Of a stretch of 64,000 nt of DNA, positions 6,637 to 17,634 are shown one piece after another. The notes under the pieces were generated by a model, which saw only the letters and a list, made by a program, of their open reading frames with translations, ran no database searches and was not told the origin of the DNA. Numbering within the stretch: the stretch's first letter is position 1; every line of letters begins with the position of its first letter. The DNA lies in assembly GCF_007004645.1 (NCBI RefSeq), contig NZ_ML660019.1:1-64000 (forward strand). Direction: 5' to 3'. This DNA is from Aliiroseovarius halocynthiae (GTDB lineage: Bacteria > Pseudomonadota > Alphaproteobacteria > Rhodobacterales > Rhodobacteraceae). A program made the translations under genes and the position numbers.

Positions 6637-8076
6637 GTGAGACGCCATCGTAATGTCAAGATCGTTGCAACACTGGGCCCATCTTCAAATGACTACGATA
6701 CAATTCGTGCGCTTTTTGAAGCTGGAGCCGACGTGTTCCGCATGAATATGTCCCACGGCACCCATGATGAACAACGCGCGCGCCACGCAATGGTGCGGCA
6801 GGTGGAAAAAGATCTGGATCGTCCCATCGCGATCTTGGCAGACCTTCAGGGGCCGAAGCTGCGTTGCGGTGTTTTCGCGGCGGGCGCCGCTGACATTGAA
6901 GAAGGTCAGGATTTCCGCTTTGATCTGGATGACACGCCGGGTGAAGGTCATCGTGTTTGTTTGCCCCACCCCGAAATTTTTGCCGCGCTTGAGGTCGGGT
7001 CCACTTTGTTGGTCAACGACGGGAAGTTGCGTTTGAAGGTGCGTGAATGTGGTGCAGACTTTGCCGATTGTATCGTTGAAGTTGGCGGGACGATCTCGGA
7101 TCGCAAAGGGGTAAATGTGCCGGATGTTGTGCTGCCGCTGGCCGCCTTGTCCGACAAAGATCGCGCAGATTTGGAATTTGCCTGTCAGCTGGGCGTTGAC
7201 TGGCTGGCGCTCAGTTTTGTGCAGCGTCCAGAGGACGTGGAAGAAGCGCGCGAGTTGGCGCACGGCCGTGCCGCCGTTTTGTCGAAAATTGAAAAGCCTG
7301 CCGCCGTGAATGCGTTTGACGCCATCTTGGAAGCGTCCGACGGCATCATGGTTGCACGTGGCGATCTGGGGGTCGAACTGCCCGTGCATGCCGTGCCGCC
7401 GATCCAGAAACGTCTGGTGCATTCGTGCCGTCGCGCGGGCAAGCCTGTGATTGTCGCTACCCAGATGCTGGAAAGCATGATCGAAAGCCCGATGCCCACA
7501 CGTGCCGAGGTTTCGGACGTGGCAAACGCGATCTATGACGGCGCTGACGCGGTTATGCTGTCGGCGGAAAGTGCCGCTGGTCAATACCCGGTCGAGGCCG
7601 TGGCCACCATGAATGCGGTCGCCATCGAGGTCGAGAATGACGAGACCTATCGCGAGCAGCTGGAAGCGTCGCGTGTCGCAAGTCGCAGTGGGGTCAATGA
7701 CGCCATTGTTGCCGCCGCGCGTGAAATCGCAGAAACCACGGACATCAAAGCGATCTGCTGCTTCACGCAATCTGGGACCACCGCGCTGTTGACCGCACGC
7801 GAGCGCCCCCGCGTGCCGATCATCGCCTTGACACCTTTGCGAGGCACGGCGCGCCGGCTTTGTCTGTCTTGGGGTACGAACTGTTTCGTAACCGCGTCGG
7901 TCGTCGAACGCTTTAAAGCAGCTGTCGTATCCGCTGCTCGGGCGGCCAGAAGTTCAGGTTTCGCGGAGGAGACGGATCAAATCGTTGTGACCGCAGGTGT
8001 GCCGTTCAACGTGCCCGGCACGACCAACATTCTGCGCGTCGCGCCGTGTGACGAGAGTTTGATCTACGCAACCTGA
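6637..8076 (+). CDS. pyk: Pyruvate kinase
   Basis: The 479-residue enzyme catalyses phosphoenolpyruvate plus ADP to pyruvate plus ATP, the last step of glycolysis. It shows KIVATLGPSS at the N-terminus, the active-site signature around LSKIEKPAAV, MVARGDLGVE and ATQMLESM, and a C-terminal allosteric domain of normal length. GTG at 6637 is chosen because GAAAGAGAGG precedes it and family members begin RRxRxxKIVATLGP. It is divergent from the formylglutamate amidohydrolase gene, so the short gap should hold promoters for both. Confidence 0.97.
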   Translation: MRRHRNVKIVATLGPSSNDYDTIRALFEAGADVFRMNMSHGTHDEQRARHAMVRQVEKDLDRPIAILADLQGPKLRCGVFAAGAADIEEGQDFRFDLDDTPGEGHRVCLPHPEIFAALEVGSTLLVNDGKLRLKVRECGADFADCIVEVGGTISDRKGVNVPDVVLPLAALSDKDRADLEFACQLGVDWLALSFVQRPEDVEEARELAHGRAAVLSKIEKPAAVNAFDAILEASDGIMVARGDLGVELPVHAVPPIQKRLVHSCRRAGKPVIVATQMLESMIESPMPTRAEVSDVANAIYDGADAVMLSAESAAGQYPVEAVATMNAVAIEVENDETYREQLEASRVASRSGVNDAIVAAAREIAETTDIKAICCFTQSGTTALLTARERPRVPIIALTPLRGTARRLCLSWGTNCFVTASVVERFKAAVVSAARAARSSGFAEETDQIVVTAGVPFNVPGTTNILRVAPCDESLIYAT

Positions 8077-8162
8077 TAAACTTGATCTACGCACCTTTCC
8101 CAAATTGGGCTATGATGTTTGAATAAGACATCAGATTGGTTCTTTGGGGAAGGGGCGAGATC

Positions 8163-8399
8163 GTGGTTTATGATAACTTTTTTGTAGTGGGGCTTTTCGT
8201 TATTGTGTTGTCAGTACCCACAATTATGGGTGCGCTTCGGCGTGGAGATGCGCCACGCATACCGGCGATAATGTTTCTAATGGGTGGCGGATTGGTAGCT
8301 TTGGCGGTCAGCGCAAAGCCGGATAGATATAGCTTGGGCACCATTCCGCAGGTGGTGGATGCTTTTGTCAATCGCTGGATGGCGTATTTCCAAGCCTGA
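8163..8399 (+). CDS. Small two-helix membrane protein
   Basis: This is a 78-residue protein starting at GTG 8163 (MVYDNFFVV), with a purine-rich GGGGAAGGGG site eight bases upstream. Hydrophobic segments lie at about residues 5-24 and 35-52. Similar small proteins sit between pyk and rpmI in related genomes as far as I recall. It is not assigned to a named family here and its function is unknown. It follows pyk by 86 bases and may share its transcript. Confidence 0.6.
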   Translation: MVYDNFFVVGLFVIVLSVPTIMGALRRGDAPRIPAIMFLMGGGLVALAVSAKPDRYSLGTIPQVVDAFVNRWMAYFQA

Positions 8400-8529
8400 C
8401 CTTTGATCGATACCGGCAAAAAGCCCTTGCGAGTCGGGCAATCTGCCCCTATACGGCCAACTTCATGTGCGCGCGGGCTAATGTGGCATGCCCGCCGTGC
8501 ATCAACGTAACCTTTGTTTGGAGACGAAA

Positions 8530-8730
8530 ATGCCCAAGATGAAGACGAAATCGAGCGCCAAGAAGCGCTTTAAGGTTTCCGCGACCGGCAAGGTCATCGG
8601 AGCCCAGGCTGGTAAACAGCACGGAATGATTAAACGGACGAAGAAATTCATCCGCAACGCACGCGGTACGTCCGCTCTGTCCGCCCCCGACGCTAAGATC
8701 GTCAAGGGCTACATGCCCTACGACCGCTAA
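8530..8730 (+). CDS. rpmI: 50S ribosomal protein L35
   Basis: The 66-residue, highly basic protein begins [16 protein letters not shown] and carries the [21 protein letters not shown] segment of L35. It is a component of the large ribosomal subunit. It is followed 14 bases later by rplT, the usual rpmI-rplT pair; infC, often first in this operon, is not here. The start is fixed by the near-invariant MPKxKT opening. Confidence 0.98.
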
Positions 8731-8744
8731 GAGGAGATACTGAT

Positions 8745-9110
8745 ATGTCCCGCGTTAAAGGTGGAACCACAACCCACGCCCGTCACAAAAAAGTCGTCAA
8801 GGCCGCCAAAGGCTATTACGGTCGCCGCAAGAATACCTTTAAGGTAGCGCGTCAGGCCGTCGACAAGGCGAACCAATATGCAACTCGCGACCGTAAGAAC
8901 CGCAAGCGTCAGTTCCGTGCGCTGTGGATCCAGCGTATCAACGCTGCTGTCCGTTCGCATGACGAAAACCTGACATACTCGCGCTTCATCAACGGCCTGA
9001 ACCTGGCTGGTGTTGAAGTGGACCGTAAGGTTCTGGCTGATCTGGCCGTACACGAGCCGGAAGCATTCGGTGCCATCGTTGAAAAAGCACAGGCTGCACT
9101 GGCTGCCTAA
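8745..9110 (+). CDS. rplT: 50S ribosomal protein L20
   Basis: The 121-residue protein is full length and begins [17 protein letters not shown] with the L20 signature [15 protein letters not shown]20 binds 23S rRNA early in 50S assembly and often represses its own operon. AAGAGGAGA precedes the ATG. Its last 60 codons, stop codon and terminator recur in a diverged copy at 10848-11082, with a glycosyltransferase gene in between. The intact gene may therefore be a mosaic whose 3' half was exchanged. Confidence 0.98.
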
Positions 9111-9164
9111 GCCAATCACAGCGAAGAAATCAAAAGCCGCGAGGGGGAACCTTCGCGGTTTTTT
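8931..9164 (+). repeat. rplT: Direct repeat copy A (rplT 3' end plus terminator)
   Basis: This 234-base stretch is repeated at 10848-11081. The copies differ at seven coding positions, of which six are silent, and in one terminator base. It marks the left edge of a 1.9-kb repeat unit carrying the GT-C gene. Confidence 0.9.
9132..9164 (+). terminator. rplT terminator
   Basis: AAAAGCCGCGA and TCGCGGTTTTTT can pair around GGGGGAACCT, followed by T residues. One stem position is a G-T wobble, where the second copy at 11049 has a perfect G-C pair. Confidence 0.85.
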
Positions 9165-9282
9165 CATGTGTGGTGTCGCCACCCAAGGTCCGATTTTCTG
9201 TCTTACCCGGTCGGCCGTTTTCAACTTGGCATTGCGAAGGTTCTTTTTTCCAGTAGGTTGCCTTCATTCTGGATGCTTTAAG

Positions 9283-10833
9283 GTGAAATCTACATTGAAA
9301 CGGTTCTCGGTCGACATTCTTGTGCTCTTCGTTGCGATCGGTGTGTTGGCGGCGTTGCTCGTCAAGCATCAGGAATTTTTCCACGATGATGCTTACATCA
9401 CGTTGCGCTATGCACGGAACTTTGCAGAGACCGGGCTAATTCAGTGGAACCGCGGGGAATGGGTGGAAGGTTATACAAGCTTGCTGCATGTGGTGTTGAC
9501 TGGTGGTTTCTTGCGGCTGGGGATCGATGCCATCGAAGCAGCGCAACTAGTGAATGTCATTGCAGTTCTAGTGCTGCTTGTTGCGACGGGAATGTCGGCG
9601 CGGGCTGTATTGCCTGGGCGGGACAACTGGCTCCCACGGGGGTTGACTGTATTGACCGTGGCAGGTTCGACACCCGTTTCCGTATGGGTGCTGGGGGGGC
9701 TCGAGGCGGTGGTTGCCGCTGCCTTGCTTGCTGCTGGATTGACGGCTTTGTTGTGCTATCTTCGTAAACCACGCCCTTGGCTGTTGGTTGCCGCTGCAGT
9801 TGCCTATTCACTGGCAATCCTGACGCGTTTGGATACGTCGGTATTCATCGCGGGATCTGGGCTAGGGTTGCTGATGATCAATTCCTCAGCGTGGCGGGCA
9901 CGTTTTCTGGCTGCTGCGATCGTGGTCGGGGTTCCCGCTGCCGTCTCCTTTGTCCAGATGGGAATACGCTGGCAGGTCTATGGCGAACTATTTCCGCTAA
10001 CGTTCTATGCGAAGGCTGATTTGCCTTTGCTGGACAAGCTTTCAAGCGGCGCTGACTATATTGCCTTGGGGTTGATTATGGTGCCGACGGTGGGGATAGC
10101 GTTTCTCATCACGGGCATAGTGTCGAGAAGCGCACAACTAAGCGTGGCGACGAAGTTGTTGGGCATCGCAGTGTTTCTACAGTTGTTGTACATCTGCTGG
10201 GCGGGCGGAGATCACATGCCATGGGCGCGGATGTTCGTTCCAATTATCGCACCATGTGCTTTGCTGCTTCTTGCATCAGTCTCTGACATTGGGGTTCAGA
10301 CAAGACATATTGTTGTTGGGAGCTCGGCGCTTGCAGCGTTGATCGTTGCGATCATTGGCCCATCCAGTGTGAGGGACCGGGCGGCCCAGTACGGCGAAAT
10401 CGTGGGCCGGCATATAGACCGCACGTGGCCCGCAGGTATCACAGTTGCGCTGAACACTGCAGGGTCTACCCCATTTATCGCAGGTCAGGGCCGTACATTT
10501 ATCGATATGCTCGGTCTGAATGATCCAATCATTGCGAAAAGGAAGAATGTACCCATTCTGACACAGCAACAACACTGGCCTGGACATACAAAGGGGGATG
10601 GCGCCTATGTTCTGTCACGAGCACCGGACCGGATTATTATTGGCCCAGCTCACGGCGTGGATATTTCCGCCGCGTGGTTTCTGTCTGGGGCGGAAATGGC
10701 TTCTATGCCTGAATTCGCAAGGTGTTATCAAAGGATGATAGAGACAATTCCCTATCTGGAAGACGGGGGCAAGCTGGATGGCACGCTCCCAGACACGTTT
10801 GTGTTCACGTATTACAGACGCGTGTGCTCTTAG
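9283..10833 (+). CDS. GT-C type membrane glycosyltransferase (AftB/LphB-like)
   Basis: The 516-residue protein has a first membrane helix at about residues 8-27, then [19 protein letters not shown]. That Asp-Asp motif in the first outer loop is typical of GT-C glycosyltransferases that use lipid-linked sugars. About ten further hydrophobic segments follow, then a soluble C-terminal domain with [12 protein letters not shown] and [10 protein letters not shown], as in AftB/LphB-like proteins. It probably moves a sugar onto an envelope glycan; donor and acceptor are unknown. GTG 9283 is the likeliest start because earlier codons lie in the rplT terminator. The gene sits alone between two rplT 3' ends, so it looks acquired. 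Confidence 0.75.
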
Positions 10834-10847
10834 AGTGGATGCTATTT

Positions 10848-11027
10848 CAGCGTATCAACGCTGCTGTCCGTTCGCATGACGAAAGCCTGACATACTCGCG
10901 TTTCATCAACGGCCTGAACCTGGCTGGCGTTGAAGTGGACCGTAAGGTTCTGGCCGATCTGGCCGTTCACGAGCCCGAAGCATTTGGTGCCATCGTTGAA
11001 AAAGCACAGGCTGCACTGGCTGCCTAA
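10848..11027 (+). pseudogene. rplT: Second, partial copy of the rplT 3' end
   Basis: The frame from 10848 reads [19 protein letters not shown] and on to KAQAALAA and a stop, equal to the last 59-60 residues of L20 with a single change (Asn to Ser). The first half of the gene is absent, so it cannot make a functional L20. Six of seven base differences from the intact copy are silent, so both copies diverged while under protein selection. That suggests the second copy came from, or is the displaced end of, a related genome's rplT. Confidence 0.9.
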
Positions 11028-11048
11028 GCCAATCACAGCGAAGAAATC

Positions 11049-11082
11049 AAAAGCCGCGAGGGGGAACCTTCGCGGCTTTTTT
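11049..11082 (+). terminator. Terminator of the second rplT 3' end
   Basis: AAAAGCCGCGA and TCGCGGCTTTT form a perfect 11-bp stem around GGGGGAACCT, followed by TT. It probably now ends transcription of the glycosyltransferase gene. Confidence 0.85.
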
Positions 11083-11197
11083 GTTTTTGGTGGTGGATGT
11101 CAGCTGTGCGGACTTTGTAGACCTTCAAAGTTTAGCTACACATGCAAGAATACATCCAACACTGTTAGCTTTGTTCTAAGTAAGGAAGGCATGAATT

Positions 11198-11695
11198 ATG
11201 ACTGTCATTCCCACATTGAAAACTGAACGTCTATTATTGCGCGCTCCAACCTTCGAAGACTGGCCTGACTTTTGGGAACTGATGAAATCGGAACGATCTG
11301 TGTATATGGGTGGTCCATTTTCAACGGTGCATGCATGGGGCGATTTCTGTCAGGGGATTGCACAATGGAAAATGTTTGGTTTTGGAAGTCTTTCGATTGA
11401 GGTTATTTCTACAAATCAGTGTGTTGGAAGAGTCGAGATTAACTATGGGCCACGTTGCCCGGAACCAGAGCTGGGTTGGCAGGTTTTCGATTTTGCAGAA
11501 GGTAAGGGGTATGCGTTCGAAGCCGCGATTGAGATGCGGCGTTGGGCATTTGAAGTGCGTGAACTGCAAACTCTTGTGAGCTACATCGACCCAAGAAACC
11601 AGCGTTCGCAGGGGCTAGCAGAAAGGCTAGGGGCTGCGCTTGACGAAACGGCTGAAAAACAGGACCCAGATGATTTGGTGTATCGACACTCATGA
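11198..11695 (+). CDS. GNAT family N-acetyltransferase (RimJ/RimL type)
   Basis: The 165-residue protein starts TLKTERLLLRAPTFEDWPDF, the usual opening of RimJ/RimL-like acetyltransferases. It ends with the acetyl-CoA-binding region and the SYIDPRNQRSQGLAERLGA motif. It should transfer an acetyl group from acetyl-CoA to an amine; the target is unknown. The ATG at 11198 has AAGGAAGG eight bases upstream. Base composition is more AT-rich than the neighbouring core genes, and it lies just beyond the rplT repeat, so it may belong to the same acquired stretch. Confidence 0.85.
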   Translation: MTVIPTLKTERLLLRAPTFEDWPDFWELMKSERSVYMGGPFSTVHAWGDFCQGIAQWKMFGFGSLSIEVISTNQCVGRVEINYGPRCPEPELGWQVFDFAEGKGYAFEAAIEMRRWAFEVRELQTLVSYIDPRNQRSQGLAERLGAALDETAEKQDPDDLVYRHS

Positions 11696-11820
11696 AAGCC
11701 TCAGTAGGGCTCAAAAGTGGACAATCCCGAATTTTCGGTCCCCATGTCGATTTTGCCAATCGTCAAACGTCTGGTACACAGAAAGGCTAAGACCTTTCCC
11801 AACAGACGAAAGGAAGAAAG

Positions 11821-12171
11821 ATGCAATTTATCTGTTTGATTTATAACGCCGAGGACAATGGCCCGCAGCCCGGCACGGACGAATTTGGTCCATATATGCA
11901 GGCCTATGCGGACTACACGCAGGAAGTTCAGGATGCGGGCGTGATGGTTGGCGGCGAGGCGTTGCAGCCCATTGCGACCGCCACCACTGTATCTGTGCGT
12001 GACGGCAAGACCGAGCTGATGGACGGCCCCTTTGCCGAAACGAAAGAGCAGTTGGGTGGCTATTATATTCTCGACTGCAAGGACCTGGACGAGGCGCTGA
12101 AATATGCAGCCAAGATCCCGGATGCCAAATATGGGCGCGTGGAAGTGCGTCCCGTAATGGTCTTCGACTGA
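11821..12171 (+). CDS. YCII/DGPF-domain protein, partner of ECF42 sigma factor
   Basis: The 116-residue protein carries the DGPF motif (MDGPFAETKEQLGGYY) that defines this YciI-related group. These small proteins have a ferredoxin-like alpha/beta fold and are encoded beside ECF42 sigma factors, whose regulons include DGPF genes. Here it ends six bases before the sigma factor start, so the two are co-transcribed. GAAAGGAAGAAAG precedes the ATG. The precise biochemical role of DGPF proteins is not established. Confidence 0.9.
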   Translation: MQFICLIYNAEDNGPQPGTDEFGPYMQAYADYTQEVQDAGVMVGGEALQPIATATTVSVRDGKTELMDGPFAETKEQLGGYYILDCKDLDEALKYAAKIPDAKYGRVEVRPVMVFD

Positions 12172-12177
12172 TCCTAG

Positions 12178-13425
12178 ATGCTGTCCCCGGTCGACGTATC
12201 TGCGCAGATCGCGCGATTGATCCGCGAAGACTGGGGGCGCATCCTGTCTGCGCTTGTGTCCTCGACTGGCAACTATGCGCTGGCCGAGGACAGCTTGCAG
12301 GACGCGGTGGTATCCGCGCTTGAGGTCTGGCCGAAGAAGGGCATTCCCATCAACCCCGATGCGTGGCTGATCACGGTGGCGCGGCGCAAGGCGCTGGATC
12401 GGATCCGGCGCGGCGAAACCGCTGATCGTAAATCTGGTGAACTGGCGCTGTGGCTGGAACAGCACCGCGCAGATCCCGAGGATCGCGACATGGTCATTCC
12501 CGATCACCGTCTGGAACTGATGTTCACCTGCTGCCACCCCGCGCTTGAGGAAAAGTCGCAGGTGGCGCTGACCCTGCGTGCCTTGGGCGGGCTGACCACG
12601 GATGAAATCGCGCGTGCCTTTCTGGACAAACGTGCCGCGATGGCCGCGCGCCTGACACGGGCGAAGAAAAAACTGGCCGGGGCGGGGATTGCCTTCAAAC
12701 TGCCCGAGCCTGAAGACTTGCACACCCGCACCGATGCTGTGCTGCGTGTGATCTATCTGATTTTCACCGAGGGCTGCCACGCGTCCTCGGGCCAGATGAT
12801 GCGCGAGGAACTGGTGCAAGAGGCTATTCGGTTGGGCCGTATCCTGACCGGCCTATTGCCGGATCATGCCGAGACGCGCGGCCTGTTGGCGCTTATGCTT
12901 CTGTCCGACAGTCGTCGCCTGACGCGCCGGGGCGCGGATGGCAGCTTTGTCCCGCTTGATGCCCAGAACCGCGCCCGGTGGGATCAGGCGCGGATCCGCG
13001 AAGGGATCGCCCTGACCAAATCCGCGCTGGGCGCGGGGGCCGCTGGCCCCTATGCGCTGCAAGCAGCCATTAGCGCCGTACATGCCGAGGCACCCAGCTT
13101 CGCAGACACCGATTGGCCGCAGATCGTCGCCCTGTATGACCTTCTGTATCGGGCGCAACCCAACCCGGTTCTGCGCGTCAATCAGGCGGTCGCTCTGTCC
13201 TATGCAGACGGCCCGCAGGCTGGGCTGGATCTGCTGACGCGGATCGAAGGCGAGGGCCGTCTGCAATCCTATCAACCCTTCCATGCCTGCCGCGCCGACC
13301 TTCTGGCGCGTCTCGGGCGGTTGGACGACGCCACCCAAAACTATCGCGCCGCCATCGCCCTGTCCCAAGCGCCCGAGGAAGCCGCGTTTCTGGAAAAACG
13401 CATGGACGCCCTGAACGGCCCGTAA
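12178..13425 (+). CDS. ECF42-type RNA polymerase sigma factor
   Basis: The 415-residue protein has sigma region 2 (about residues 10-80, DSLQDAVVSALEVWPKKGIP), a conserved MFTCCHPAL segment, and region 4 (LTLRALGGLTTDEIARAFL). A long C-terminal extension is helical and TPR-like, ending near residue 410. That extension and the DGPF partner gene define group ECF42; published work shows the extension is needed for activity. No anti-sigma factor gene is nearby, as expected for this group. It should redirect polymerase to a small regulon, usually including the DGPF gene itself. Confidence 0.9.
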   Translation: MLSPVDVSAQIARLIREDWGRILSALVSSTGNYALAEDSLQDAVVSALEVWPKKGIPINPDAWLITVARRKALDRIRRGETADRKSGELALWLEQHRADPEDRDMVIPDHRLELMFTCCHPALEEKSQVALTLRALGGLTTDEIARAFLDKRAAMAARLTRAKKKLAGAGIAFKLPEPEDLHTRTDAVLRVIYLIFTEGCHASSGQMMREELVQEAIRLGRILTGLLPDHAETRGLLALMLLSDSRRLTRRGADGSFVPLDAQNRARWDQARIREGIALTKSALGAGAAGPYALQAAISAVHAEAPSFADTDWPQIVALYDLLYRAQPNPVLRVNQAVALSYADGPQAGLDLLTRIEGEGRLQSYQPFHACRADLLARLGRLDDATQNYRAAIALSQAPEEAAFLEKRMDALNGP

Positions 13426-13495
13426 TCCGCGCAGCAACCTTGCCATTTTGCACTCTATTCGCTAGCTGGAAACGGTGCGAAGCAAAGGGACCGAG

Positions 13496-14569
13496 ATGGA
13501 CGAGCTCAGAACAAAATATCTGGACGCAATCGGTGGTGCGGCTGACGAGGCTGCGCTGGAAGATATCCGTGTGCAGGCGGTCGGGAAGAAGGGTGAAGTG
13601 GCCCTGAAAATGCGCGAGCTGGGCAAGATGACGCCCGAGGAACGGCAGGTGGCCGGGCCGAAGCTGAACGCCCTGAAGGACGAGATTAACTCGGCCATTT
13701 CCGCCAAGAAATCCGCGCTGGCCGATGCGGCGCTTGATGAACGTCTGCGCACCGAATGGCTGGACGTCACTTTGCCGGGGCGCCCGCAGCGCCGTGGCAC
13801 GATCCACCCGATCAGCCAAGTGACCGAGGAAATATCGGCCATCTTCGGCGATATGGGCTTCTCGGTCGCGGAGGGTCCGCAGATCGAAAGTGACTGGTAC
13901 AACTTCGACGCCCTGAACATCCCGCCGCACCACCCTGCGCGGCAGGAGTTCGACACGTTCTATATGCACCGTGATGAAGGTGATAACCGCCCGCCACACG
14001 TGCTGCGCACCCATACTTCGCCGGTGCAAATCCGCGCGATGGAGAAGACCGGCGCGCCGATCCGCGTGATCGCACCGGGTCGCGTCTATCGCTCGGACTA
14101 CGACCAGACCCACACCCCGATGTTCCATCAGGTCGAGGGGCTGGCGATCGACAAAGACATCTCGATGGCGAACCTGAAATGGACGCTGGAAGAATTCTGC
14201 CGCGCGTTCTTTGAAATCGACGAGATCGAACTGCGCTTCCGCGCCTCGCACTTCCCCTTCACCGAGCCGTCGGCAGAAGTCGACATTCGCTGCTCGTGGG
14301 AAGGCGGCACGCTGAAACTGGGCGAGGGCGACGATTGGATGGAAATCCTTGGCTCCGGCATGGTGCATCCGAAAGTGCTGTCGGCGGCGGGTGTGAACCC
14401 CGACGAATGGCAAGGCTTTGCCTTTGGCCTCGGCATCGACCGTCTGGCCATGCTGAAATACGGCATCCCCGACCTGCGCGCGTTCTTCGACAGCGACCTG
14501 CGCTGGCTGCGCCACTATGGGTTCAGCTCACTTGACGTGCCGACCATGCGTGGGGGGTTGAGTAGGTGA
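13496..14569 (+). CDS. pheS: Phenylalanyl-tRNA synthetase alpha subunit
   Basis: The 357-residue protein is the catalytic subunit that charges tRNA-Phe as an alpha2-beta2 enzyme. It has an N-terminal coiled-coil arm (about 1-85), a class II core with [21 protein letters not shown] (motif 2) and a C-terminal [16 protein letters not shown] (motif 3). The ATG at 13496 follows AAAGGGA and matches the family start MDEL. Its stop overlaps the GTG of an inserted SMI1/KNR4 gene by four bases, so pheT does not follow directly. Confidence 0.98.
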
Positions 14570-15228
14570 GCTCAACGGATTGGCTCCACAGATACTTAGA
14601 AAGTTTGGCCGCAATCAACGCGCCGGTGCTCGAGTGCTTGCTGCCACCTGCGAGTGAGAGTGAGATTCAAGTGTTGGCGCAAGAGACAGGATTAAGTATC
14701 CCATCATCTTTGCGTGCATTTTGGCAACGTGTCGGAGGTATCCAGCAAGGGTTAACCTACCACAATGCAGCGTTTGCCGGATATCTGTTTGCACCAGTTT
14801 CTGTACAGGAATCACTCGAGGACTTTCGTTTGGCTGAACAGTTGCGTCGCGAAAACCCAATGGAGGATCAGGAGTTCGCTGATCAGTTTTGGCCAGCTGG
14901 TATGATCAAGTTTGCTGGCGAGGATTCAAACGGTTTCTGGGTAAATTGTAGACCAGAATCGCCGACGTTTGAGAGTGTTTATGTGCGTTTTGTGAATAGC
15001 GATCCGCTGTTGCGTTGGTCGACAAACATTAACGCGCTATTTAAAACGCTTTGTGCGGCCGTGGCCGAAGGAACGATCCGGGTCGCGGGAGAAACCGACG
15101 CCGATTGGGACGCGGGATCGCTGGCTACAGATGAAACCGCCTTAGATGTGTTAGCTAAAAAAATGAATCCGGGATGCGCTGCGCATGACGATGAGTCAGC
15201 AGTTCATGCTATCCCCGACTGGAATTAA
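14566..15228 (+). CDS. SMI1/KNR4 family protein lodged between pheS and pheT
   Basis: The 220-residue protein has the SMI1/KNR4 fold pattern: [19 protein letters not shown], then [15 protein letters not shown], then an acidic/aromatic core ([12 protein letters not shown]). In bacteria this superfamily is common among immunity proteins for contact-dependent and polymorphic toxins. No toxin gene is visible here, so that role is only possible. It starts at GTG 14566, overlapping the pheS stop, and ends nine bases before pheT, so it should be translated with them. Its codon use is more AT-rich than pheS and pheT, which suggests acquisition. Confidence 0.8.
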
Positions 15229-15237
15229 GAGGTTCAA

Positions 15238-17634
15238 ATGAAATTCACCATCTCCTGGCTGAAAGACCACCTCGACACCACGGCCTCCGTGGAAGACATC
15301 GCCGAGGCCTGCACCGATCTGGGGCTCGAGGTTGAAGAGATCTTCAACCCCATGGACCGTCTGGGCGCCTTCACCATCGCCAAGGTCAAATCGGCCGAGA
15401 AACACCCCGACGCTGACCGTCTTCGCGTGTGCACGGTCGAGACGAACGAGGGCGAAAAGCAGATCGTTTGCGGTGCGCCGAATGCCCGCGAGGGGATCAC
15501 TGTGGTGCTGGCCAAACCCGGCGACTATGTGCCCGGCATCGACGTGACCCTGTCTGTCGGTAAAATCCGCGGCGTGGAAAGCCACGGCATGATGGCCTCT
15601 GAGCGCGAGCTGGAGCTGTCGGACGAGCATGACGGCATTATCGAGCTGCCTTCGGGCGAAGTGGGCGACAAGTTCGTCGATTGGCTCGCCGCCAATGACC
15701 CCGAGAAAGTCGACCCGGTGATCGAGATCGCCATCACGCCGAACCGCCCGGATGCGCTGGGCGTGCGCGGCATTGCGCGCGACTTGGCCGCCCGTGGTCT
15801 GGGCACGCTGAAGCCCTTGAAAGAACACAAGGTTGAGGGCAACGGCCCCAGCCCGATCAACGTGACCATTGACGAGGATACGCTGGACGCGAACCCCTTG
15901 TTCATGGGGCGTTTGATCAAGGGCGTGAAGAACGGACCCAGCCCCGCGTGGTTGCAGGCGCGTTTGAAGGCCGTGGGCCTGCGCCCGATCTCGGCCTTGG
16001 TCGATGTCACCAACTTCTTCACCTACGACATGAACCGTCCGCTGCACGTGTTTGACGCCGACAAGGTCAAAGGCGACCTGCGCGTACATCGTGCGAAGGG
16101 TGGCGAGACCTTGGTTGGTCTGGACGAGAAAGAATACACGTTCGACGCTGGCATGATCATCATTTCGGATGATGAAGGCGTAGAAAGCATTGCAGGCATC
16201 ATGGGCGGTCTGCCCACCGGCTGCACCGACGAGACCACCAACGTCTTCCTTGAAGCCGCTGTCTGGGATGCGATCCGTGTCGCGAAAACGGGCCGTGTGT
16301 TGAAGGTCAACTCGGACGCGCGCTATCGCAACGAACGAGGCATTGACCCGGAATACAACGCGCCCGCGATCGAGGCTGCGACCCAGATGATCCTTGATCT
16401 CTGCGGGGGCGAGGCATCAGACGTTGTGGTCGCTGGCGACGTGCCGGATGTTTCGCGTGCCTATAAGCTGGACACCGACCGTGTTCAGTCGCTGGTCGGT
16501 ATGGACATCCCTGCGGACGAGCAGCGCAAAACGCTGACCGCGCTGGGCTTCACCATCGACGGTGATATGGCCCATGTGCCGTCTTGGCGTCCTGACGTGC
16601 TGGGGTCGGCAGATCTGGTCGAGGAAGTGGCCCGCGTCGCATCCCTGACCAAGCTGGTTGGCAAGCCGCTGCCGCGCACCCATGTGGGCGTGCCAAAGGC
16701 GATCCTGTCGCCAATGCAAAAGCGTGAAGGCATTGCACGGCGCACCGTGGCGGCTCTGGGCTACAACGAATGTGTAACCTACAGCTTCATTGATCAGGCG
16801 AGTGCGAAACGCTTCGGCACTGGTGGTGACAACGTGGCCTTGGCGAACCCGATTTCGTCCGAGATGAGCCACATGCGCCCCTCGCTTCTGCCCGGTCTTC
16901 TGCAAGCCGCCGCCCGCAATCAGGCACGCGGGTTCATGGATCTGGCACTGTTCGAGGTTGGCCCAGCGTTCAGCGGCGGTGAGCCGGATGAGTACGAGCA
17001 GATGGTCACCGGCATTCTGGTCGGCCACACCGGCCCGCGTGATCGCTTCGGTGCACGTCGCCCCGTGGACACCTATGACGCTAAGGCGGATGTCGAAGCT
17101 GTGCTCGCGGCCATCGGCGCACCTGCCAAGCTGACCTTCGTGCGTGACATGAACGCGTGGTGGCATCCGGGACGCTCGGCTAAGCTGGGACTGGGTCCGA
17201 AGAACATCCTTGGCGCATTTGGCGAGCTGCACCCGAAAACGATTGCCGAGATGGACGTGAAAGGCCCCGTTGTGGCCTTCGCCGTGCATTTGGCGAAAGT
17301 GCCGTTCCCGAAAGCCAAAGGCACGGGCCGTACGGCGCTGGGCGCATCTGACCTGCAGCCGGTTGAACGCGACTTTGCCTTCGTGGTGGACGCCAATGTG
17401 GAAGCGATCAATCTGGTGAACGCTGCGGCCGGTGCCGACAAGGCGCTGATCACCGATGTGAACGTCTTTGACGAATTCATCGGTGGCTCGCTGGGCGAGG
17501 GTAAGAAGTCCCTTGCTATCACCGTGCGCCTGCAACCGCGCGATGCGACCCTGACCGATAAGGATATCGAGGCTGTCAGCCAGAAGATCGTTCAGAAGGT
17601 CGAGAAAGCGACAGGCGGCAGCCTGCGCGGATAA
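15238..17634 (+). CDS. pheT: Phenylalanyl-tRNA synthetase beta subunit
   Basis: The 798-residue protein is full length. It has the N-terminal EMAP/OB-fold tRNA-binding domain (about 40-150), the B3/B4 editing domain, B5, a catalytically inactive synthetase-like core, and a C-terminal FDX-ACB anticodon-binding domain (about 705-797, starting SDLQPVERDFAF). It pairs with PheS to form the tetrameric enzyme and edits mischarged Tyr-tRNA-Phe. AAGAGG just before the ATG is a normal ribosome binding site. The intervening SMI1/KNR4 gene is the only irregularity. Confidence 0.98.
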   Translation: MKFTISWLKDHLDTTASVEDIAEACTDLGLEVEEIFNPMDRLGAFTIAKVKSAEKHPDADRLRVCTVETNEGEKQIVCGAPNAREGITVVLAKPGDYVPGIDVTLSVGKIRGVESHGMMASERELELSDEHDGIIELPSGEVGDKFVDWLAANDPEKVDPVIEIAITPNRPDALGVRGIARDLAARGLGTLKPLKEHKVEGNGPSPINVTIDEDTLDANPLFMGRLIKGVKNGPSPAWLQARLKAVGLRPISALVDVTNFFTYDMNRPLHVFDADKVKGDLRVHRAKGGETLVGLDEKEYTFDAGMIIISDDEGVESIAGIMGGLPTGCTDETTNVFLEAAVWDAIRVAKTGRVLKVNSDARYRNERGIDPEYNAPAIEAATQMILDLCGGEASDVVVAGDVPDVSRAYKLDTDRVQSLVGMDIPADEQRKTLTALGFTIDGDMAHVPSWRPDVLGSADLVEEVARVASLTKLVGKPLPRTHVGVPKAILSPMQKREGIARRTVAALGYNECVTYSFIDQASAKRFGTGGDNVALANPISSEMSHMRPSLLPGLLQAAARNQARGFMDLALFEVGPAFSGGEPDEYEQMVTGILVGHTGPRDRFGARRPVDTYDAKADVEAVLAAIGAPAKLTFVRDMNAWWHPGRSAKLGLGPKNILGAFGELHPKTIAEMDVKGPVVAFAVHLAKVPFPKAKGTGRTALGASDLQPVERDFAFVVDANVEAINLVNAAAGADKALITDVNVFDEFIGGSLGEGKKSLAITVRLQPRDATLTDKDIEAVSQKIVQKVEKATGGSLRG

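Follow-up and report, generated by a model that had tools for sequence, protein, structure and literature searches.

In the genome of Aliiroseovarius halocynthiae (RefSeq assembly GCF_007004645.1) the ribosomal protein gene rplT is followed by a second copy of its own 3' end, complete with stop codon and terminator, which lies stranded between two cassette genes in the interval separating rplT from pheS. We analysed the first 64,000 nucleotides of contig NZ_ML660019.1 (hereafter the window), in which the intact rplT, a gene for a putative glycosyltransferase (GT), the stranded rplT end, a GNAT acetyltransferase gene and a YCII-ECF gene pair stand in this order before pheS. The rplT-pheS interval, like the adjacent pheS-pheT interval, is a cassette slot that varies in gene content and length from one species to the next. 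We consider that two variants of this slot from one gene pool, rplT-GT and rplT-GNAT-YCII-ECF, were probably fused in a recombination event that had homology at one end and none at the other (a probability of about 0.65). The processes concerned are known ones, those of minimal mobile elements and of homology-facilitated illegitimate recombination, in a new combination and a new place.

The duplicated end of rplT

The repeat and the gene that it encloses are arranged as follows (window coordinates, + for the forward strand).

8745-9110, +: intact rplT, 121 aa, ribosomal protein bL20 (Pfam PF00453, E 2e-45)
8931-9164, +: repeat copy 1, rplT codons 63-121, stop and terminator (hairpin -22.7 kcal/mol)
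9283-10833, +: cassette 1, GT, a 516-aa putative GT-C glycosyltransferase (5 of 20 genus relatives have a homologue immediately after rplT, 61-67% identity)
10834-10847, +: junction of the GT stop with the rplT fragment, a joint without extended homology
10839-11027, +: predicted open reading frame (ORF) of 62 codons, chance or real, whose translation gives three extra residues followed by L20 residues 63-121
10848-11081, +: repeat copy 2, rplT codons 63-121, stop and terminator, without the first 62 codons (hairpin -25.1 kcal/mol)

The repeat of the rplT 3' end is real. By direct reading and a repeat search, 8931-9164 and 10848-11081 are identical at 226 of 234 bases with a spacing of 1917, and their similarity is lost beyond 9164 and 11081. 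An earlier note on this DNA, made from the sequence alone, had described the last 60 codons of rplT and its terminator as recurring at 10848-11081 with seven coding differences, six of them silent; the recurrence and the differences are as described and the extent is right, the exact count being 59 sense codons (63-121) plus the stop. Of the eight differences, one falls in the terminator (9159) and seven are coding: that at 8968 replaces asparagine by serine (N75S), and those at 8984, 9011, 9038, 9050, 9059 and 9068 are silent. A 14-pair stem is common to both terminators, and the second is indeed the better one, as previously noted, with the stronger hairpin (-25.1 versus -22.7 kcal/mol); a simple terminator scan reports copy 2 alone of the two, in a scan whose site count is no higher than that of shuffled sequence. 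When the whole genome was searched at the DNA level with the 3' part of rplT, copy 2 was the only other match, and its E value of 2.5e-108 means that the duplication is not due to chance.

Upstream of copy 2, neither the bases at 10834-10847 nor the tail of the GT gene share any alignment or repeat with the sequence that precedes rplT codon 63. The ATG of the 62-codon ORF is in frame with copy 2 and stands five bases past the GT stop. A single ORF fills the space between the copies, as the earlier note had it, starting with GTG at 9283 in a frame that is open from 9010; its label as a GT-C glycosyltransferase is weakly supported, since neither a Pfam match (even at E 10) nor a PDB sequence match (at E 1) was found. 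In NCBIfam the match of this putative enzyme is to the putative glycosyltransferase NF047440 (E 1.2). A family homologue (L068), with ~44% identity, gives E 1.3e-4 against the terminal arabinofuranosyltransferase model NF041481, a score well short of the cut-off. The predicted GT structure (mean pLDDT 38) is too poor for comparison, a low confidence that we attribute to a lack of alignment depth.

A second rplT end is confined to this genome (G000) among 21 Aliiroseovarius genomes, 19 of which are at least 90% complete. We extended the DNA search with the rplT end to a family sample of 394 genomes, one per genus except for the window's own, with at most two candidates scored per genome: 365 match and seven, the window genome included, match twice. 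Four of the six others were set aside because the second match comprises only 27-39 bases. In the remaining two, G399 and G262, the second rplT stretches stand at contig ends and overlap the first at 97.5% (686 bases) in G399 and in pieces of 92-99% in G262; these are probably strain variants in the assemblies, a real duplication being possible. Hence, of the genomes that match twice, none but the window genome clearly has a second rplT end within a contig. Titles and opening lines of abstracts from searches of the open-licence literature, only two of which were directed at such a scar, contained no description of one at rplT.

Cassette slots on either side of pheS

Downstream of the repeat, the window continues with the second cassette, the YCII-ECF pair and the genes that delimit the two slots.

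11198-11695, +: cassette 2, GNAT acetyltransferase (Pfam PF13302, E 2.9e-22)
11821-12171, +: YCII-domain protein (Pfam PF03795), which 11 of 20 other genus loci also have in the slot
12178-13425, +: ECF sigma factor with DUF6596, paired with YCII (Pfam PF04542, PF08281, PF20239)
13475-14569, +: pheS, which bounds slot 1 on the right and slot 2 on the left (an ORF named from sequence and gene order; in 18 of 20 loci its relatives share 89.5-98.9% identity)
14566-15228, +: SUKH (SMI1/KNR4) protein, the slot 2 cassette between pheS and pheT (Pfam PF09346, E 4.9e-9)
15238-17634, +: pheT, right flank of slot 2 (an ORF with relatives, named from sequence and gene order)

The gene order pyk, rpmI, rplT, pheS, pheT is constant in the genus loci as far as the stretches reach. 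In the 19 of 21 loci with both flanks, the gap measures 97-4391 bp between rplT and pheS and 277-1170 bp between pheS and pheT, the two others being G011, whose pheS lies outside the 14 kb fetched, and G017, on a 7.4-kb contig. We also compared 55 loci of other genera, one genome each, which come from near the top of the best DNA matches rather than from a random draw, some matches near contig ends having been passed over; on lengths only, the gaps here are 107-4332 bp for rplT-pheS (42 loci reaching pheS) and 40-2694 bp for pheS-pheT (39 reaching pheT). Across the genus the slot cargo comprises GT, cupin, GNAT, YCII with ECF, phosphatidylserine decarboxylase, CDP-alcohol transferase, RpiB, ASCH, SUKH and unnamed ORFs, which agrees with the alternative cargo that the earlier note proposed to look for among relatives. 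The rplT-pheS slot is occupied in the relatives as follows.

G003, G010 and G017: GT, cupin and YCII-ECF
G009: GT and YCII-ECF
G018: GT alone
G004: cupin and YCII-ECF
G012: phosphatidylserine decarboxylase and CDP-alcohol transferase, then YCII-ECF
G008: RpiB; G002 has a relative of RpiB
G006, G007, G015, G016 and G020: no ORF of 60 codons

The cupin label was assigned in G003 and extended to G010, G017 and G004 by DNA similarity; RpiB was named in G008. In G011, a row of larger ORFs follows rplT, and pheS is absent from the ~10 kb fetched there.

GT occurs in 5 of the 20 relatives, always directly behind rplT and without a second rplT end, and the DNA match between the window and these relatives is continuous across rplT, the spacer and most of GT. 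Beyond the genus, the family sample holds GT homologues in seven other genera at E 1e-40 (37-46% identity), and rplT or pheS accompanies none of the seven within the 12-14 kb around each; in Salipiger a relative with 38% identity is carried on a plasmid. The stretches from the 20 other genus genomes (~7-14 kb each), searched at E 1e-4, give no match to the GNAT gene of the window, and this gene has no counterpart in the slot in any of the 55 family stretches, where the best match per stretch places a GNAT in four, always beyond pheT. The GNAT family is large, with matches at E 1e-25 in 302 of 394 genomes, window genome included, and a best outside relative at 58%; being so widespread, it does not allow the source of this gene to be traced.

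YCII and ECF (11821-13425) are present or absent as a pair across the genus slots. The window ECF is only 74.5-82% identical to that of the six nearest ECF-bearing relatives, whose pheS, where in reach, is 97.5-98.9% identical, and sliding identity shows the ECF gene as a low-identity island (71-79%) between YCII and pheS. In the pheS-pheT slot the SUKH gene (14566-15228) recurs in G015 (90% identical), the only one to have it of the 18 relatives that show both flanks, and G004 and G012 carry an ASCH-type gene instead. The GT, GNAT, YCII and ECF genes were searched in Pfam and belong to no transposase or integrase family (GT being without any match); as in the earlier note, the ORFs searched in the slot include no integrase.

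Fragments of the flanking genes themselves were then sought in both slots of the 19 complete genus loci: 4 of 114 tests with rplT, pheS and pheT gave a match, against 0 of 114 reversed-sequence controls. One of the four is the rplT end of the window and the others are the first 71-89 bases of pheT in G007, G013 and G014 (loci L030, L036 and L037). Each of these mirror scars has an ORF on either side and stands 538 bases upstream of the true pheT, and in all three the scar is fused with the beginning of one and the same ASCH-type gene (ASCH having been named in G004 and the name extended to the scar loci by sequence), from which we conclude that the joint is probably one old event. The ORFs to the left of the scar differ among the three genomes, and the stop of each overlaps the ATG of the scar, as if they had been taken from a pheS-cassette-pheT donor. 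The G014 scar is 100% identical over 71 bases to the start of pheT in G015 and 94.4% identical to its own pheT; that of G007 is 93.0% identical over 71 bases to the pheT of the window genome and 85.4% over 89 bases to its own; that of G013 has diverged from all (best 76.1%). Direct repeats of other kinds in the family loci L114, L127 and L134 were rejected, none being a stranded rplT, pheS or pheT end; the pair in L127 is a run of 30 bases common to the pheS and pheT coding sequences.

Elsewhere in the window, an ORF for a FAD-dependent oxidoreductase (1054-1839) matches its 353-position profile over positions 1-209 only; it lies near a tRNA-Met gene (2013-2089, -) and has possibly been truncated by an insertion at the tRNA.

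Origin of the stranded end

In a tree of rplT 3' ends the two copies of the window join each other, with support values of 98/95 over 240 columns including the untranslated part and of 90/77 over the coding part only, and they share states that are missing from the seven nearest relatives, namely at coding position 9098 and at untranslated bases. The earlier note, which proposed that DNA of a related strain had recombined into the native rplT, had set beforehand that such a grouping would speak against recent exchange. Since the copies group together, the partner would have been of the same lineage, that is, the same species or a very near one, and no other sampled species. The outline of an exchange between related strains stands, in view of the allele-like differences, and a donor distinguishable from this lineage does not.

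There is moderate support for the two copies representing two functional alleles that were united, rather than a gene and its old, decayed duplicate, in that six of the seven coding changes are silent (P 0.012 if neither copy were constrained) and that the branch of the fragment (0.011) is one third as long as that of the intact gene (0.032-0.036). When polarised by the relatives, three changes fall on copy 1 and two, both silent, on copy 2, with two unassigned.

We propose the following route. One variant of the slot (A) would have been rplT-terminator-GT and the other (B) rplT-terminator-GNAT-YCII-ECF-pheS, both present in the gene pool of this or a very closely related species. A linear piece of DNA from one strain would enter the other and recombine by homology at one end, which would lie in or upstream of rplT if A entered, and in YCII-ECF-pheS or beyond if B entered. 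The other end would be joined without real homology, GT tail to rplT codon 63. One whole rplT would thereby be kept and a cassette added instead of replaced, and the rplT 3' end and terminator of the other allele would be left between the cassettes as a scar, where they could end GT transcription. One homologous and one non-homologous end are the signature of homology-facilitated illegitimate recombination.

Such a piece could have been carried by a gene transfer agent (GTA) or taken up by natural competence. The genome contains an RcGTA-like cluster (G000:C1:1575000-1594999; GTA_TIM E 3.2e-152), with portal, major head, adaptor, short tape-measure and tail genes on one strand, including a tail protein of 1308 aa, and it contains a ComEC-type gene. 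Both are plausible couriers of linear DNA between close relatives. In excerpts from PMC9765227, GTAs are described as packaging mostly random host fragments.

Which of the two variants was the newcomer is a separate matter. The earlier note regarded GT as incoming cargo, a claim that is not upheld as it was put: rplT-GT is common to five relatives and GT may be resident. The arrival of GT with its rplT 3' end from a conspecific donor, copy 2 being the native end pushed downstream, is possible, with evidence pointing both ways. Such an arrival is consistent with the core-protein tree (19 rows, G011 and G017 left out with genes missing), where the window genome groups with G004 and G012 (SH-aLRT 98), both without GT, and with the GT tree, which places its GT outside the group of the five others (98; long outgroup branches prompted a program warning). 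The disagreement of the two trees indicates that GT travels. On the other side, rplT-GT is found in five relatives and rplT-GNAT in none of those examined, which favours GNAT and copy 2 as the newcomer. Furthermore, the bases after the GT stop end in GCTATTTC and resemble the GT-cupin joint of G003, G010 and G017, GCTATTCC; these eight bases are a faint hint that a resident rplT-GT-cupin slot may have been cut at that joint.

Several observations weigh against a fusion of two slot variants. Few changes underlie the argument against duplication in place followed by decay: the P value for neutral decay of copy 2 is 0.013, 0.10 or 0.24 according to whether the unassigned changes are given to copy 1, dropped or given to copy 2, so that of the earlier note's argument that both copies diverged as selected coding sequence the six silent changes stand and the test of polarity is weak. 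The seven coding differences are confined to codons 75-108, a pattern that would fit as well if gene conversion or allelic exchange had subsequently affected one copy. The two parental haplotypes, and chiefly rplT-GNAT, are missing from a comparison that covers one strain of this species, and sliding identity reveals no crossover point. With respect to transport, the GTA cluster proves no role, and the ComEC family also matches 10 of 14 control genomes, which means that its presence says little. None of the 55 stretches from other genera (13 of which do not reach pheS) has a second rplT end, and none of the 39 loci with pheS and pheT in reach has a pheT scar, implying that the process, or its visible trace, is rare; according to excerpts from PMC5361080, homology-facilitated illegitimate recombination is itself orders of magnitude rarer than plain homologous recombination. 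Finally, the ORFs to the left of the pheT scars were called mechanically, and three of three have no Pfam match.

The strongest alternative, which we regard as rather unlikely, is an internal tandem duplication of the stretch that begins at rplT codon 63 and closes with GT, after which the second GT would have been lost and copy 1 later altered by allelic exchange or mutation. This would agree with the grouping of the copies within one genome and their shared lineage-specific untranslated bases, and with GT being found beside rplT in relatives too; a tandem unit from codon 63 to past GT would also yield exactly the joint that is observed. However, the fragment, free of constraint in this reading, has evolved no faster than the essential gene (0.011 against 0.032-0.036, with two changes against three, both of the fragment's being silent), and an extra step is needed, namely the clean removal of GT and the arrival of GNAT, which is seen in the slot of no relative examined.

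It is also conceivable, at a low probability, that the fragment was retained for a function, either as a free C-terminal domain of L20 that would bind the rpmI-rplT message or ribosome assembly sites, or as a terminator for GT. In E. coli the C-terminal half of L20 is enough for repression. The ORF with its in-frame ATG at 10839 spans L20 residues 63-121 and the hairpin is intact; excerpts from PMC6962249 describe the C-terminal domain of L20 as separate and globular, and excerpts from PMC10931766 describe L20 as the autogenous repressor of its operon. Conversely, no clear ribosome-binding site is seen by eye, in-frame starts close to random joints are not uncommon, the arrangement is present in one genome only, and no L20 leader is among the Rfam matches in 7800-13600, where nothing exceeds a curated threshold and the only sub-threshold match is STnc40 (E 0.76), over the end of copy 2.

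An assembly or mixed-strain artefact is very improbable. The genome is a draft of 29 contigs, and G399 and G262 have second rplT stretches at contig ends, probably as strain variants; against this, both copies lie inside one 1.8-Mb contig and differ at eight sites, contamination is 0.04, and the GT tail shares no repeat with sequence before codon 63, all of which makes an error in assembly an unlikely origin of the second copy. Lastly, the earlier note likened the locus to an island insertion that restores its target gene, and the 3' end of such a gene is indeed found at both ends of the insert, but the analogy is poor and an integrase-made island is rejected as the least credible of the alternatives: the insert is one gene (GT) with no integrase, the unequal copies (8 differing sites in 234 bases) leave no identical attachment core, and the mirror scars at pheT are 5' ends.

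Known systems and a possible growth of cassette arrays

Integrase islands duplicate the 3' end of their target gene, such that the target stays whole and the old end is found at the far side of the insert; the rplT-pheS slot differs in having no integrase, a one-gene insert and unequal copies. The meningococcal pheS/pheT locus is the founding example of a minimal mobile element. In the Neisseria elements, as outlined in excerpts from PMC3082526, different whole-gene cassettes occupy the space between two conserved genes, and the content between pheS and pheT differs among meningococcal strains. The slots described here are alike in their conserved flanks and alternative whole-gene cassettes and, as far as GT, GNAT, YCII and ECF of the window are concerned, in the lack of mobility genes of their own; the variation between conserved genes was judged over the 19 of 21 genus loci with both flanks and, by lengths only, over 42 of 55 family loci. 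Our comparison is between species, not strains, and the present case differs further in that rplT-pheS is the main slot, in a marine alphaproteobacterium, with the cassettes stacked and the end of a core gene stranded between them.

A likeness in layout is offered by the type VI secretion system (T6SS) effector-immunity arrays of Vibrio cholerae. In excerpts from PMC5361080, a module is added behind a conserved anchor with the old parts shifted downstream, the effector 3' end is displaced in one step, and homology-facilitated illegitimate recombination is proposed for the stacked immunity genes. In both systems a new module stands behind a conserved anchor and an old 3' end has been moved downstream. 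In V. cholerae, however, the displaced part is the end of the variable effector itself and the retained immunity gene is selected, whereas at the present locus an essential ribosomal gene, which is not cargo, has supplied that end. The same excerpts describe homology-facilitated illegitimate recombination in Acinetobacter, Pseudomonas stutzeri and Streptococcus as having one homologous anchor and one non-homologous joint. The locus resembles these systems by anatomy alone, with its joint without extended homology at 10834-10848.

Slots of this kind usually show the end product only; here the joint is preserved together with both allele ends. The locus shows how cassettes can be added, not replaced, at an essential translation gene without the enzymes of mobile elements, and it supplies a signature that can be searched for, the end of a core gene stranded between cassettes. 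We tentatively suggest that scars may serve as re-usable docking sites, where a stranded core-gene end would add homology for swaps of the outer cassette between flank and scar; this is suggested by the different left ORFs at the pheT scars and by scars closer to the pheT of another species, the stretches being short. If scars are re-used in this way, a slot with one cassette would grow into an array, and the rplT scar of the window would be a fresh first step at a ribosomal gene. True re-use of the pheT scars would help to explain how hotspots free of integrases grow into arrays.

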